From: Geothrix sp.
GTDB taxonomy: Bacteria > Acidobacteriota > Holophagae > Holophagales > Holophagaceae
Direction of reading: 5' to 3'
Length of the DNA stretch: 64,000 bases
NCBI RefSeq assembly: GCF_030219325.1
Contig: NZ_CP126625.1
Coordinates: 2,902,857-2,966,856 of the forward strand
Shown: positions 7,103 to 61,943 of the stretch, in pieces
How positions within the stretch are numbered: position 1 is the first letter of the stretch
Layout: each line of letters starts with the position of its first letter
Notes under the pieces: model-generated
Told to the model about the DNA's origin: nothing
Databases searched by the model: none
The model's input: the letters and a program-made list of their open reading frames with translations, nothing else
Program-made: the position numbers and the translations under genes

Positions 7103-7245
7103 GGAACCGCGAATGACGCGAATGGGCGCGAAGAAAGGGCTTTCGGCTGGATGCCCGCTGGCTCCGCACCCCTCTCTTTCGTTTCCCTTCGCGACCTGTC
7201 CCGTGCTTTCACCGATCCGTGAAAGCCGTTCGCCGGTTCCCACCT
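7103..7245. repeat. Interspersed GCGAATG-type repeat, degenerate copy
   Basis: The left arm carries three short tandem units of the form CGCGAATGR and closely matches the left arm of the element at 9886-9980. The right arm is only partly conserved (CCCTTCGCG and TTCGCCGGTTCC). It fills most of the gap between the M14 gene and the next gene and contains no credible ORF. Confidence 0.55.
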
Positions 7246-7292
7246 GAACCGCTCCGGGCTGCCCCGTAGCCTGGGACAGTTCCGGAGGTCCC

Positions 7293-7934
7293 ATGTCCCT
7301 GCTGCCCGCATCCCACCCAGGCTTCTTCGAGGCGCTGGCCCAGCGCCGGACCTACACCACCCTGCTCTACCTGCTGCTGTCCATGGCCACGGGCATCCTG
7401 GCCTTCACCTACACGGTGACGGGTCTCTCCCTGAGCCTGGGCCTGGCCATCCTCATCATCGGCATCCCCGTGGCGCTGACCTTTCTCGTGGGCGCCCGCC
7501 TGCTCTCCGTGGGCGAGGTGCACCTGCTGAAGGTGCTGGTGGGCGGAGAGGGCTCGGCAGGCCCCGCCCTGCTGCCCGGCGGGGAGGGATTCCTGGGCCG
7601 GCTGAAGCGCCTGCTGAAGGATCGCCGCACCTGGACCAGCCTCCTCTACCTGCTGCTCCTGATGCCCCTGGGCATCGCCTACTTCACCACGCTGGTCAGC
7701 CTGCTCTCCGTGGGCCTGGGCCTGCTCGCGGTACCCGCAGCGCGGCTCTTCCAGGCCACCGGGACCCTCAGCCTCGACCTGGGCGGCACGGGCTGGGCCC
7801 TGGCCCACCCGAACCTGACGGCCCTGCTCTGCGGCCTGACGGGCCTGGCCCTCATCCCCCTCACCTTCCACCTGGCGCTGCTGCTGGGCCGCTTCCAGGT
7901 CTGGCTGGCCAAGCACCTGCTGGTGAACGCCTAG
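7293..7934 (+). CDS. Membrane protein with duplicated 'sensor' domain, 213 aa
   Basis: Four or more hydrophobic helices are visible. The halves are related: RRTYTTLLYLLLSMATGI near residue 18 and RRTWTSLLYLLLLMPLGI near residue 112 occupy equivalent places. The motif LLYLLLLMPLGIAYFT is typical of the putative sensor domain found fused to histidine kinases in Actinobacteria and elsewhere. Here it is free-standing with no output domain, and no kinase gene lies nearby. GGAG precedes the ATG. The next gene, a DUF4342 protein, starts 29 nt downstream and is probably co-transcribed. Confidence 0.7.
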   Translation: MSLLPASHPGFFEALAQRRTYTTLLYLLLSMATGILAFTYTVTGLSLSLGLAILIIGIPVALTFLVGARLLSVGEVHLLKVLVGGEGSAGPALLPGGEGFLGRLKRLLKDRRTWTSLLYLLLLMPLGIAYFTTLVSLLSVGLGLLAVPAARLFQATGTLSLDLGGTGWALAHPNLTALLCGLTGLALIPLTFHLALLLGRFQVWLAKHLLVNA

Positions 7935-7963
7935 CCTCTCACCCACATCTGAAAGGACACCGC

Positions 7964-55143: not shown

Positions 55144-56391
55144 ATGTCCGCGCCCGAAGCACCAGGTCCCGCCACCGCCCCGCCGGCCGCCACGCCGCCC
55201 GAGATCGCGCTCTGCCTGGAGCTGGGCCGGGCCTTCCAGGCTTTTGGAATTCCCGCCCACCGCTTCGAGGACGCCCTGGCGCGGATTTCGGAGCGGCTGG
55301 GCCTGGAGGGCCAGTTCTTCGCCCTGCCCACGGCCTTCTTCGCCTCCCTGGGGAAGGGCGGCCACCACTGGACCTTCATCCAGCGGAGCCCCTCCGGCGA
55401 CGTGAACCTGGAGAAGCTCTCGGACCTGCAGGAGACCACGGATGCCCTCATCGCCGGGGACCTGGACGCCGCCGGCGCCCACGACCGCGTGCAGACGATC
55501 CTCGCCGCCCCGGATCGCTGGAGCGCCCTGCTGACGGTGCTCTGCTTCGGCCTCGGCTCCGCCCCGGCCGCCATGTTCTTCGGCGGGGGATGGCGCGAGA
55601 TGCTCCTCACGGCCGTGCTGGGTTCCCTGGTGGGCCTCATGGTCATCCTGCTGGGACGGAAGGCCGGCCTCGCGCGGCTGGTCCATCCCGTGGCCGGCAC
55701 CCTGGTGGGCTTCCTGGCCGTGGCCGCCGCCTACCGGTTCCCCCAGGTCTCGCCCCAGGTGCTCACGGTGGCGGGCCTCATCGTCCTTGTGCCGGGACTG
55801 CGCCTGGTGGTGTCCATGAACGAGCTGGCCACGGGCAACCTCGTCGCCGGCACCGCCCGCCTGGTGGACACGGCCATGACCTTCCTGTCGCTGGGGTTCG
55901 GCGTGGCGCTGGGCCAGCGGCTTGCCGTGGCCATGCTCGACCGCGCCCTGCAGGGCACGCCCCTGCCCCTGCCCGCCTGGACCATCCTGCCCACGCTGCT
56001 GCTGGCCGCCTCGGCCTTCGTGGTGATCTTCAAGGCACGGCCGCGGGACCTGCCCTGGATCTTCGCGGCCTGCGTGCTGGCCTTCTTCGGCGCGCGCCAG
56101 GGCGCCGTGCTGCTGGGCCCCCAGTTCGGCGTGGGCCTCGGCGCCTTCGCCCTGGGCCTGGGCAGCAACCTCTTCACGCGGCTCACCCGGCGCCCTTCCG
56201 TGGTGACGCTGCTGCCGGGCCTGATGGTGCTGGTGCCCGGGGGCCTCGGCTTCAAGGGCCTCGAGTTCATCATCCAGAAGCAGCTGGTGATGGGCCTCGA
56301 CACGGCCTTCCAGGCCCTCTTCGTGGCCATCGCCCTGCTCACGGGCCTGCTCCTGGCCCACGCGGCCGTGCAGCCGAGGACCGCCCTGTAG
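55144..56391 (+). CDS. ThrE-type threonine/serine exporter family protein, 415 aa
   Basis: A soluble N-terminal domain (AFQAFGIPAHRFEDALARISERLGLEG spread over residues 30-57; FFALPTAFFASLG) is followed by 10 hydrophobic helices, the two-part design of ThrE (YjjP-like and YjjB-like halves fused). The motif LVVSMNELATGNLVAGTARLVDTAM marks the end of the first half. It would export small amino acids. TAACCT ends 5 nt before the ATG, so a leaderless start is possible. Confidence 0.85.
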   Translation: MSAPEAPGPATAPPAATPPEIALCLELGRAFQAFGIPAHRFEDALARISERLGLEGQFFALPTAFFASLGKGGHHWTFIQRSPSGDVNLEKLSDLQETTDALIAGDLDAAGAHDRVQTILAAPDRWSALLTVLCFGLGSAPAAMFFGGGWREMLLTAVLGSLVGLMVILLGRKAGLARLVHPVAGTLVGFLAVAAAYRFPQVSPQVLTVAGLIVLVPGLRLVVSMNELATGNLVAGTARLVDTAMTFLSLGFGVALGQRLAVAMLDRALQGTPLPLPAWTILPTLLLAASAFVVIFKARPRDLPWIFAACVLAFFGARQGAVLLGPQFGVGLGAFALGLGSNLFTRLTRRPSVVTLLPGLMVLVPGGLGFKGLEFIIQKQLVMGLDTAFQALFVAIALLTGLLLAHAAVQPRTAL

Positions 56392-56754
56392 CCCTTCCGG
56401 CTGGGGCGCTCTGGACCCGGCCCTGGGTCCACTGAAGCAACCAACCTGGGATCAGCGCCTTGCCCGCCAGCCGCCGGGACAGCATGGGTCATTGTCCCTC
56501 TTGAAAACGATTGAGCCTGTTTTTTCTATGTTGCTGCAATGTTTTGATTAGCTTTGAAAAAGATGAATTGGCTTTCTCGTTGCAAATGCCTGGATCAAAT
56601 CTCCACGGCTTCGTGAGGGTGTCCAGGGCTTCGGCCTGGTCCGCTCCTGCCTGGCCTTGGCGACCTCCAGGAGAGCGCCCTTGCCGAATCCCGATGCCAC
56701 GATCCTTCCCGCCGCCCGGTGCATCGTCGGGGATCCGTCCCCTGCGGGGCAGCC
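56392..56754 (+). promoter_or_regulatory. AT-rich leader of the 56755-58876 unit
   Basis: The gap of 363 nt holds no gene. Bases about 56500-56590 are AT-rich against their surroundings. TTGAAA at 56501-56506 and TTCTAT at 56524-56529 (17-nt spacing) form a weak promoter candidate. The remaining 160 nt before the ATG is GC-rich untranslated leader. Confidence 0.4.
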
Positions 56755-57024
56755 ATGAAGCAGCTGCGCGACGATGCCTGCGGCTGCGCCATGGGCGCGG
56801 TGTTCACGGTGGTCGGCCTCGGCCTGTCATCCGGCTATGCCGTCTGGCAGTGCCGGACGAACGGCATGGCCACCTCGGCGGCGGTGCTGAGGGTGTTCCT
56901 CGCCACCTTCCTGGCGGCGGGGGCCGGGAAGGTCCTCGGCATCCTGCGCTACCGCATGGGCCGGAACCGGCCGGCCAGCCCTGCCCTGTCCCCCAACCTC
57001 GACCCACACCCCACAGGAGAATGA
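56755..57024 (+). CDS. Small two-span membrane protein, partner of the kelch protein, 89 aa
   Basis: MKQLRDDACGCAMGAVFTVV begins a first hydrophobic helix (about residues 11-28), and a second runs over about 40-58. A Cys-Gly-Cys sits at the entry to the first helix and a lone Cys lies in the loop. The tail is Pro-rich. No family recognised. The next gene starts 1 nt after its stop, so the two are almost surely co-translated. The ATG at 56755 is chosen for its fit with the first helix; no strong ribosome site is seen. Confidence 0.65.
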   Translation: MKQLRDDACGCAMGAVFTVVGLGLSSGYAVWQCRTNGMATSAAVLRVFLATFLAAGAGKVLGILRYRMGRNRPASPALSPNLDPHPTGE

Positions 57025-57025
57025 G

Positions 57026-58876
57026 ATGGCCGGAACCTGGAAGCAGCTCCCCTCGAATTGCACCCGCAACCTGGGCCTCACCCTCGTCCGCTGCGCGCAG
57101 CTCGGACAGACCATCCGGACGGCCTGCGTGGGCTGGGCCAACCAGGTCGAGCAGTCCTGCGCGCAGTGGGCGGACCAGGGCCATTCCGAGTGCGCCGCCT
57201 GGTCGGACCATGGGCACAACGAATGCTGCGATTGGGCCCCCTGCTCCTGGTTCTGCGATGCCTTCTACTGGGTGGCCAACGTGCTCTGCGACGCCTTCTA
57301 CTGGGTGGCCAACGTGGTGTGCGTGGTCTTCACCACCATCGTGAAGGTCGTCTGCGTGCTGGTGTCGATCATCGTCGAGGTGTTCTGCGCGCTCTGGAGC
57401 ATCATCACGATCTTCTTCTGCGTCTCCACTGCGAACGGAGGCACCGCCCTGCTGCTCACCGACGGCACCGTGCTCATGCAGGAGTGCCTGCTCGGGTACG
57501 GCACGCGCCGCTGGTGGAAGCTGGTGCCCGACAACACCGGCAGCTATTTCAACGGCACCTGGCGGCGGGTGCGGGACGCCAACGTGGGCCGGAAGTACTT
57601 CGCCTCGGCCGTCCTCGCCGATGGCCGCGTGCTGGTCTGCGGGGGCGAGTATTCCGATGCCAGCGGCATGAACGCGGCAGACGAGACGAACACCTGCGAA
57701 ATCTACGACCCGGTGGCGGACACCTGGACGGCGATCGACCCGCCCAGGGACGCGGGCGGGGCCTTCTGGGCCAAGATCGGCGATGCGGCCTGCTCCCTGC
57801 TGGCGGATGGCACCTTCCTGATGGGGAATGCCATGGACCGGCAGACCGCCACCTTCGATCCCGCCACGAACGCCTGGTCGCTGGCCGGCGGCAAGCGGAA
57901 CCGGGCCACGGAGGAAAGCTGGGTCCTGCTGCGAGACCAGACGGTCAGCACCCCCAACTGCTCGGGGCATCCGGCTGCGGAGAAGTACCTGCCCGCCACG
58001 CGGACCTGGATGGCGGACCGCAGCATCCCGGCGGCCTCCGACATCGTCGAGGATGCCTCGAGCGAGACGGGGCCCGGCGTGCTGCTGCCCGATGGCCGAG
58101 CCTTCTGGGTCGGGGCCACGGGCAAGACCGTGCTCTACACGGCACCAGCCACCGCGAACGCCCAGGGAACCTGGATGGCCGGGCCCGACCTCCCCAAGGC
58201 GGGCCGCATGGAGCAGGGCACGAAGGATGGTCCGGGCTGCCTGCTGGTCAACGGCAACGTGCTGTTCGGGATCGCTCCGGTCAACGGGAAGGGCGGCGAA
58301 GAGGACTACCTTTCGCCCACCAGCTTCTTCGAGTTCGATGGGACGGGCGTCAACCGCGTGAGCGATCCTCCAAACAGCAACCATGCCACCTACGTGGGCC
58401 GCATGCTGCTGCTGCCCAACGGCGATGTCATGTTCATGCGGGAGGACGACTCGAGCTTCTATGCCTACACGGACTACGGCCGGCCGCAGGACATCTGGCG
58501 GCCCGTGATCCAGGCCTGCCCGGGCATGATCCAGCCCGGCCACACGATCCAAGTCTCCGGGCTGAACTTCAACGGTTTCTCCCAGGCCGTCGGCTACGGC
58601 GACGACTCCACCGCCGCCACCAACTACCCGCTGGTGCGGATCAGACACCGGCAGTCCGGCCATGTGGCCTACTGCTGCACCTTCAACCACACCACCCCCG
58701 ATGCGGCGGGGAACCCAGTTCCCTCCATGGGCGTCGCCACCGGAGCCGCCGTGATCACGACCCATGTCGCGGTGCCGGCCGGCCTCCCCTTGGGCGATTC
58801 TGATCTGTTCGTGGTGGCCAACGGCATCGAGTCCCTGCCCTTCCGGGTGGACATCGTGCACCGGAGGAAGGATTGA
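57026..58876 (+). CDS. Kelch/galactose-oxidase-like protein with N-terminal 11-residue Cys repeat and membrane helix, 616 aa
   Basis: Residues 12-132 carry a Cys every 11 residues (12, 23, 34, 45, 56, 67, then 77, 88, 99, 110, 121, 132), with one 10-residue step. The first half is polar and Trp-rich; from about residue 79 (DAFYWVANVL twice) it becomes hydrophobic and membrane-spanning. From about residue 137 several kelch blades follow (for example VLADGRVLVCGGEYSD, CEIYDPVADTW), then a C-terminal Ig-like domain of the galactose-oxidase/DUF1929 type (PGHTIQVSGLNFNG). The copper ligands of galactose oxidase cannot be identified, so enzyme activity is unproven. The blade part is probably displayed outside the membrane. 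Confidence 0.85.
   Translation: MAGTWKQLPSNCTRNLGLTLVRCAQLGQTIRTACVGWANQVEQSCAQWADQGHSECAAWSDHGHNECCDWAPCSWFCDAFYWVANVLCDAFYWVANVVCVVFTTIVKVVCVLVSIIVEVFCALWSIITIFFCVSTANGGTALLLTDGTVLMQECLLGYGTRRWWKLVPDNTGSYFNGTWRRVRDANVGRKYFASAVLADGRVLVCGGEYSDASGMNAADETNTCEIYDPVADTWTAIDPPRDAGGAFWAKIGDAACSLLADGTFLMGNAMDRQTATFDPATNAWSLAGGKRNRATEESWVLLRDQTVSTPNCSGHPAAEKYLPATRTWMADRSIPAASDIVEDASSETGPGVLLPDGRAFWVGATGKTVLYTAPATANAQGTWMAGPDLPKAGRMEQGTKDGPGCLLVNGNVLFGIAPVNGKGGEEDYLSPTSFFEFDGTGVNRVSDPPNSNHATYVGRMLLLPNGDVMFMREDDSSFYAYTDYGRPQDIWRPVIQACPGMIQPGHTIQVSGLNFNGFSQAVGYGDDSTAATNYPLVRIRHRQSGHVAYCCTFNHTTPDAAGNPVPSMGVATGAAVITTHVAVPAGLPLGDSDLFVVANGIESLPFRVDIVHRRKD
57254..57319 (+). repeat. 33-bp tandem repeat within the kelch gene
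   Basis: Two adjacent 33-bp units, at 57254-57286 and 57287-57319, differ at very few bases and encode CDAFYWVANVL and CDAFYWVANVV. They are the clearest copies of the 11-residue unit. Confidence 0.8.
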
Positions 58877-58882
58877 GCCCGA

Positions 58883-58911
58883 CCGCCCGGTCCTTGTGCG
58901 AATCCGGGCGG
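58883..58911 (+). terminator. Hairpin after the kelch gene
   Basis: CCGCCCGG (58883-58890) and CCGGGCGG (58904-58911) form a perfect 8-bp stem with a 13-nt loop, 6 nt after the stop codon. It overlaps the next promoter and has no T-run. Confidence 0.5.
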
Positions 58912-58921
58912 TTCCTATATT
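58894..58921 (+). promoter_or_regulatory. Promoter of the 58955 gene
   Basis: TTGTGC at 58894-58899 and TATATT at 58916-58921 are 16 nt apart. A 5' leader of about 27 nt contains AAGGAG, 6 nt ahead of the start. Confidence 0.55.
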
Positions 58922-58954
58922 GAGCCAGGCCCCAAGGCTCACAAGGAGATGTGC

Positions 58955-59224
58955 ATGAACAAACTGGGCATGTTTGCCCTGGCGTTGGCGTTGGCCGGAA
59001 CCACGGTCCTCTCCGCCCAGTCCAAGGAAGACAAGAGCCGGGCGAAGGCCAAGGACACGGTGGACCGGGTCCGGGAGGCCGATCCCCCCAAGGTGAAGGA
59101 GCGCCAGAAGGACGACACGGCGCAGAAGCGGGCCGACGAGGCCAATGCCCAGGAGCGGGCCCGTCAGAAGGAAGTCGCCAAGAAATACCCCGCCAAGGGC
59201 AAGGACGTGCCGCCACCGAAATAG
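58955..59224 (+). CDS. Small secreted Lys-rich protein, 89 aa
   Basis: A signal peptide (MNKLGMFALALALAGTTVLSAQ) is followed by a highly charged helix of about 65 residues rich in Lys, Glu, Asp and Arg, ending KGKDVPPPK. It resembles in style the secreted coiled-coil protein at 1150-1644 but is not obviously homologous. No family recognised. An in-frame ATG at 58949 is too close to the AAGGAG site, so 58955 is chosen. It has its own promoter and a strong terminator. Confidence 0.7.
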   Translation: MNKLGMFALALALAGTTVLSAQSKEDKSRAKAKDTVDRVREADPPKVKERQKDDTAQKRADEANAQERARQKEVAKKYPAKGKDVPPPK

Positions 59225-59253
59225 GCGCCGGCTCGCACCCCTTCCCGACCAGA

Positions 59254-59276
59254 CCCCGCCGCCGGCGGGGTTTTTT
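59254..59276 (+). terminator. Intrinsic terminator after the 58955 gene
   Basis: CCCCGCC and GGCGGGG pair perfectly around GCC and are followed directly by TTTTTT. It is the only textbook terminator with a full T-run in the window. Confidence 0.85.
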
Positions 59277-59308
59277 GTTGGCCTGATCAGGCGGGTATGG
59301 ATAATATT

Positions 59309-59336
59309 TTGGAAGAAAATTTTAGTTGATTACAAT
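59309..59336 (+). promoter_or_regulatory. Promoter of clpB
   Basis: TTGGAA at 59309-59314 and TACAAT at 59331-59336 are 16 nt apart in a locally AT-rich stretch, 34 nt before the ATG. No heat-shock-type operator (CIRCE) was seen. Confidence 0.5.
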
Positions 59337-59369
59337 CATATTTGGATCATTCTGGATGCGAGGTGCCGC

Positions 59370-61943
<2,574 letters not shown>

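Follow-up and report, generated by a model that had tools for sequence, protein, structure and literature searches.

A cysteine ladder, predicted to fold as a helical hairpin, is joined to different heads and encoded beside a small C-G-C membrane protein in Geothrix and other bacteria

We report a cysteine-ladder protein of Geothrix sp., encoded within a 64,000-nucleotide stretch of contig NZ_CP126625.1 (the window), together with its relatives in two phyla. The ladder itself, its conservation, a mirror-like spacing of its cysteines in the relatives, the different heads swapped behind it and the pairing of its gene with that of a small membrane protein were all computed from the sequences. The ladder is predicted to fold as an antiparallel pair of helices. 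In the explanation we prefer, to which we give an even chance, this hairpin is zippered by its cysteines and would act as a membrane-associated anchor for exchangeable enzymes, served by a dedicated membrane partner.

The ladder gene (57026..58876, + strand) is an open reading frame of 616 amino acids plus a stop codon, coding for an N-terminal cysteine hairpin and a C-terminal kelch head. The sequence AGGAG is located at 57015-57019, upstream of the start codon, and one base separates this gene from the stop codon of the preceding one. An open frame of 712 amino acids runs antisense to the gene (56804-58942, - strand) and is probably a side effect of GC-rich codon usage. Cysteines are found in the translation at residues 12, 23, 34, 45, 56, 67, 77, 88, 99, 110, 121 and 132, exactly where an earlier note on this DNA had placed them, with Cys68 and Cys73 in the linker as additions to that list. 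Residues 1-140 hold 10 Cys-Cys pairs spaced by 11; none of 100,000 shuffles equalled this number and the shuffle maximum was seven, bearing out the hendecad period that had been proposed. An 11-residue period in a (predicted) helix, the feature of hendecad coiled coils, is therefore present.

The note had also described a polar half followed by a hydrophobic one, and the mean Kyte-Doolittle values (-0.27 for residues 12-77 and +1.92 for residues 77-132) agree with this; the starts of 19-residue windows exceeding 1.6 run almost without interruption from 83 to 120, and a further one lies at 126. The polar arm (57053..57226, + strand; residues 10-67) carries the rungs at 12, 23, 34, 45, 56 and 67, the turn CDWAPC (57227..57244, + strand; residues 68-73) contains the additional Cys68 and Cys73, and the hydrophobic arm (57245..57421, + strand; residues 74-132) carries the rungs at 77, 88, 99, 110, 121 and 132. 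Within the hydrophobic arm lies a 33-bp tandem repeat (57252..57323, + strand; 2.2 copies, 92% matches), so part of the hydrophobic ladder is a tandem duplication and the rungs concerned are not independent of one another. Cysteine occupies the hendecad a position in 0.96 and 0.92 of slots; the d position holds W at a frequency of 0.72 in the polar arm and an aromatic residue (W, F or Y) at 0.88 in the hydrophobic arm. The motif C-C-x-W-x-P-C-S-W-x-C around the turn was kept in all seven rows of one ladder alignment and is not present in the relative from genome G703.

When the ladder alone was modelled with AlphaFold2 as a monomer from a five-row alignment, the best model (pLDDT 78.6, pTM 0.49) had helices at residues 10-70 and 74-137, and the remaining four models had pLDDT values of 57.0 to 71.8. 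The full-length protein, also a monomer from five rows, gave a poor model (pLDDT 51.1) with helices at 10-67 and 74-132. The break between the helices falls at residues 71-73 in the ladder-only model and at 68-73 in the full-length model, and this turn coincides with the single 10-residue step of the ladder. The earlier note had pictured the ladder as an unbroken helix that starts in water and passes through the membrane, and had itself named a broken helix as evidence against this. Since both models break into two helices and relatives show mirror compensation in their spacing, the single straight transmembrane ladder was set aside as the best reading and retained as a rival; the ladder is probably not one straight membrane-crossing helix. 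The hydrophobic arm, of approximately 56-60 residues, is about three times the length needed for a single membrane crossing. An in-plane 11/3 amphipathic helix, of the synuclein or perilipin kind, was also considered and is probably a poorer fit: the polar strip of the hydrophobic arm is narrow and the polar arm would be left unexplained.

Structural neighbours of the ladder model include the chemoreceptor hairpin 3g6b_A (Z 10.4, rmsd 6.8, 135 aligned) and the ATP-synthase c subunit 7jg5_1 (Z 10.0, rmsd 2.5, 80 aligned, model residues 30-109), and Z values near 10 in helical models possibly reflect only a common arrangement. Chemoreceptor hairpins and ATP-synthase c subunits are both helix hairpins. 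A Foldseek search with the ladder model gave nothing significant (top match E 1.1).

Folding at the turn would bring the cysteines into opposed pairs, namely 12/132, 23/121, 34/110, 45/99, 56/88 and 67/77. Symmetry is trivial in a plain ladder, and the mirror test therefore rests on relatives that deviate from it. Where a relative has lost a rung or altered its spacing (11 to 7, or 11 to 26), the other arm mostly changes at the mirror position. The protein of G588 has a step of 7 adjoining the turn in both arms, and in the phosphoesterase type (two proteins looked at) the missing rung, Arg15, stands opposite Leu113, giving the sum of 128 shared by the other pairs. The steps in G516 and G392 are 26, 26 in one arm against 26, 27 in the other, with the outer pair one residue off the mirror, and those in G371 are 26 against 26; G703 has seven plus seven rungs with every step 11. 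Polar-arm cysteines having a mirror partner no more than one residue off number 6/6 in the kelch type, 4/5 in the phosphoesterase type, 7/7 in both G588 and G703, 3/3 in both G516 and G392, and 2/2 in G371. Across the five spacing types, the assignment that joins the two arms of the same type ranked first of 120.

The mirror has exceptions. C4/C128 of the phosphoesterase type is off by four, C146 of G588 and C150 of G703 are without a partner, and the polar arm of the phosphoesterase type matches its own hydrophobic arm less well (score 0.75) than that of the kelch type (0.89). Probabilities under random placement ranged from 0.0007 to 0.08 for single proteins. The test was designed post hoc, once the pattern had been noticed, so new members are needed. 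The mirror-symmetric spacing in relatives argues for pairing within one chain. For two ideal straight helices placed 8-10 Angstrom apart and wound at 3.63 residues per turn, the six window pairs are no more than 0.6 Angstrom from the CB-CB distance of a disulfide; they fit exactly at 3.67 and are 2.3 off at 3.60, and the G516 pairs fit at 3.71 residues per turn and are 2.2-2.9 off at 3.60-3.67. On this idealised geometry all six window pairings are possible, which does not imply that they occur. Pairing is the best-supported step of the argument, disulfide chemistry is less well supported and the compartment least.

The ladder is conserved and under purifying selection, its dN/dS (Nei-Gojobori) being 0.12-0.16 in comparisons of three kelch-type genes and 0.06 for the two phosphoesterase-type genes compared. 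Comparison of homologues, a check that the earlier note had proposed, showed that what is conserved is the period and not the other residues: between four types, rung slots were identical in 4-6 of 6 per arm, as against 7-20 of the 50-60 other slots.

Three kinds of head were found behind the ladder domain. The window head, a kelch-type beta-propeller to which another beta region is added at the C terminus (57431..58873, + strand; residues 136-616), matches Kelch_1 at E 9e-8 and, in Foldseek, kelch domains from E 1.2e-8. Kelch-type heads number three (the window and locus L013 by Pfam, L012 by alignment). Four heads are of the phosphoesterase type: L006, L011 and G588 score 211, 213.5 and 238.9 bits respectively with PF04185, against a gathering cut-off of 23, and L010 was assigned by similarity. 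The four zinc-metallopeptidase-like heads are those of G703, G516, G392 and G371. Reprolysin matches of the G703 and G516 heads are weak and below cut-offs, as is a match of the G703 head to an M6 domain; the G392 and G371 heads resemble that of G516 and contain in their translations an HExxH motif, which we take as a sign of a zinc metallopeptidase. Residues 173-293 of the kelch head (57542-57904) match PHROG 16216, of unknown function, at E 7.1e-6.

The kelch propeller of the window head is shared with GlxA and galactose oxidase. The head matches the NCBIfam GlxA model at E 6.5e-7 (28 bits, far below the 800-bit cut-off), and phmmer matched it at E of about 2e-7 to 3e-7 to chains whose records read 'secreted protein' and which we take to be GlxA. 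The Tyr-His pair of these chains, presumably their copper site, aligns with Tyr-Val in all three kelch-type members, making a copper oxidase activity of the kelch head doubtful.

The gene preceding the ladder gene (56755..57024, + strand) encodes the small membrane protein. It starts with ATG at 56755, with a GTG at 56719 also open, and its C-G-C codons occupy 56779-56787; alignments and hydrophobic windows showed two hydrophobic segments followed by K and R. A protein of this kind is encoded beside the ladder gene in 10 of 11 loci: directly upstream of it in the window, L012, L013, L006, L010, L011, G588, G516 and G392, and downstream with one gene in between in G703. No partner frame was found in the 11 kb taken around the ladder gene of G371. 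The intervening gene of G703, of about 150 amino acids (L279:8117-8584, - strand), has a sub-threshold Pfam match to AsqO_C (E 0.015), and in L011 two different CGC partner genes (7116-7433 and 7544-7936) stand in tandem ahead of one ladder gene. The C, G, C, K and R residues are invariant in a nine-row partner alignment and, judged by eye, are kept in G516 and G392 too. The partner gene of the window evolves fast (dN/dS 0.74 against L012) and that of L006 gives 0.33 against L010, so constraint along the length of the partner is loose.

A partner profile, searched against the 77 family genomes, matched the same three genomes as the ladder, with the same copy numbers (2, 1 and 2) and adjoining the ladders, and gave no match in the other family genomes. 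These five partner sequences had been included in the profile, so the weight of this result rests on the absences. G516 was discovered through the partner profile alone, as the one new genome among the 3 of 258 that matched, and the neighbour of its partner gene encodes a hairpin protein, which makes it an independent case for the ladder-partner pairing. By eye, the only neighbours common to different locus types were the ladder, the partner, and general regulators or chance antisense frames. Among individual loci, the kelch-type pair of the window is flanked by a gene for a ThrE-type exporter and one of ClpB type (55144-61943), with similar flanks in L013 and, partly rearranged, in L012. Ahead of the phosphoesterase-type pair in the window genome is a gene (L006:3311-4204) that by eye resembles an S1/P1-type nuclease.

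The window genome consists of a single 3.73-Mb contig and encodes, at L006, a second ladder protein with a different head. A single N-terminal protein query matched 1 of 297 genomes in a sample of the phylum, its own. In the family sample, a profile built from six ladders hit 4 of 77 genomes, of which three were kept (G000, G304 and G310) and G325 was dropped (E 0.0042, 35 residues, 87-aa frame). A scan of named genomes with two narrow peptide patterns, beyond whose reach distant relatives lie, gave 45 stretches with four confirmed: L010 and L013 in one Geothrix metagenome-assembled genome (MAG; G310), L012 in a Holophagaceae MAG (G304) and L011 in a Proteobacteria MAG (G347). In the class of G347, 4 of 274 genomes matched and G347 itself and G588 were kept, G568 and G463 being dropped (E about 0.008, internal stops). 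The order of G347 gave 2 of 250 (G347 itself and G703), its phylum the same two (2/398), and the order of G588 only G588 itself (1/40). With G516 as query, 4 of 155 genomes matched; G516 itself, G392 and G371 were kept and G445 was dropped (E 9e-4, internal stop). The same query, run without a positive control, matched none of 154 genomes of the window's phylum. The large samples include genomes whose candidates were only partly scored (G347, for example, with 9 or 14 of 35), and misses are possible. Judged by these low counts, the system is rare in the genomes sampled and its occurrence is scattered. Between the window genome and the Proteobacteria MAG, the phosphoesterase-type proteins share 78% identity over 705 residues, a likeness across phyla that suggests horizontal transfer.

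A mobile or viral origin of the ladder was considered and set aside, the plasmid, phage and viral-contig searches having given no relative. There was no tblastn match in plasmids with four ladder or hairpin queries or in phages with three, and none was confirmed in viral contigs with three profiles and one protein. Scans of viral contigs with DNA ladder patterns, two of which gave at least 120 matches, yielded no relative among the matches listed; those looked at were low-complexity, antisense or dissimilar to the ladder profile.

In the preferred explanation, residues 1-137 would form an antiparallel alpha-hairpin, with the polar arm (10-67) and the hydrophobic arm (74-132) joined at CDWAPC. 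The arms would be kept in register by six Cys-Cys rungs, most likely disulfides and spaced by about 16 Angstrom, to give a stiff zip of approximately 9 nm. The hydrophobic arm would pack into or along the membrane, or against other copies, its cysteine face being covered by the polar arm, and the hairpin would anchor or display the exchangeable C-terminal head. A disulfide lock and a displayed head, both proposed earlier, are possible. The ladder gene is presumably read together with that of the two-helix Cys-Gly-Cys membrane protein, which may be a dedicated partner in docking, insertion or thiol handling. No signal peptide was evident by eye, and the positive-inside rule would place the CGC of the partner on the cytoplasmic side, an unlikely site for disulfides. 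Disulfides, membrane anchoring, the compartment and the role of the partner are inferred.

In a first alternative, which we consider unlikely, the same hairpin, with its paired cysteines binding a soft metal (Cu(I), Zn or Fe-S) in place of forming disulfides, would make a metal-loaded or redox strip at the membrane. Paired cysteine layers suit a metal as well as a disulfide, and a cytoplasmic hairpin without a signal peptide would be reduced. Coa6, a CX9C-CX10C protein, is described as binding Cu(I) in the text available of PMC6743065. Spacing of rungs at 16 Angstrom is poor for charge hopping, however, and the aromatic d position dominates, with no conserved His or additional ligand beside the rungs and no metal gene adjoining the pair that is common to the locus types.

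The proposal of the earlier note, a parallel homo-oligomeric hendecad coiled coil with cysteines in its core, crossing or lining a membrane, is in our estimate quite unlikely. In hendecads, residues at a are directed towards the axis of the bundle according to the accessible part of PMC9858780, and the a position is where cysteine dominates here. The structure models were of monomers, and G703 has 14 rungs without a Pro turn. Against this, both models break the helix, spacing changes are compensated in a mirror-like manner, and the hydrophobic arm far exceeds one bilayer. A polymorphic toxin with its immunity protein, in which the hairpin enters a target membrane to deliver or display varied enzyme heads and the producer is shielded by the small membrane protein, is improbable: the hydrolase-type heads are swapped, occurrence is sporadic (3/77 family genomes), the cross-phylum copy is 78% identical and the weak structural neighbours include chains of MakA and colicin, but the partner motif stays constant despite different heads and is usually encoded upstream, unlike head-specific immunity, and the kelch-type gene lies between the same neighbours in the window, L012 and L013 under purifying selection.

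Family searches gave nothing significant over the hairpin or the partner in Pfam (seven hairpin proteins, three partner copies), NCBIfam (four and one), PHROGs (three and one; best partner match E 0.09) or PDB profile searches (best partner match E 0.17), and the ladder had no sequence match to any PDB chain. The literature searched, to which the main hendecad survey was external, held no description of a cysteine-hendecad hairpin or of the CGC partner. A hendecad family named 'MACH' reportedly comes from a 2023 survey by Martinez-Goikoetxea and Lupas. Hendecad coiled coils, including 'MACH', share the 11-residue helix period with the ladder; the family is known here by name alone, from its mention in the available part of the CCfrag paper (PMC11676326, section 3.2). 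This published family may be the same thing as the ladder, and it is what most threatens a claim of novelty.

Hairpins of helices with two cysteine pairs as staples are well known, and C-x-C is said to act as a disulfide-isomerase mimic, judging from the title of a 2003 paper by Woycechowsky and Raines. The closest likeness considered, that of the twin CX9C and CX9C-CX10C (CHCH) proteins Coa6, Cox6B and Cox17, would lie in a mirror-register cysteine helix pair with cysteines about three helical turns apart. In Coa6 the pair is tethered by Cys58-Cys90 and Cys68-Cys79, and mirror-register cysteines of CX9C-CX10C proteins are needed for import and trapping, as the passages available of PMC6743065 describe. 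CHCHD4, the oxidase of twin-CX9C proteins, acts through CPC in the excerpt seen of PMC12114033, and the ladder comes with a CGC partner; a CGC triad is discussed for Nox2 in the excerpt of PMC4316792. An antiparallel helix pair, as in CHCH proteins, is for the ladder a prediction of the ladder-only model. CHCH proteins are small, soluble and mitochondrial, imported into the intermembrane space through Mia40, with two cysteines per helix, separated by nine or ten residues, and two disulfides, whereas the ladder is an N-terminal bacterial domain with six or seven slots, six rungs per arm in the window with ten residues between them, and one hydrophobic arm. A fuller analogy with Mia40 and its twin-CX9C substrates is doubtful. 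In it the CGC protein would oxidise, reduce or capture the zip, and zipping or unzipping would decide whether the hydrophobic arm is covered or membrane-inserted, making one thiol-gated anchoring or delivery device for different enzymes.

A zip of six or seven cysteine pairs, built from one polar and one hydrophobic helix, placed on unrelated enzymes in two phyla and accompanied by a C-G-C partner, would have no counterpart in our searches of Pfam, NCBIfam and PDB. Its mirror-like spacing offers a sharp prediction of the individual cysteine pairs. Should the partner act on these thiols, the system would be one in which a thiol partner is encoded beside its own substrate.
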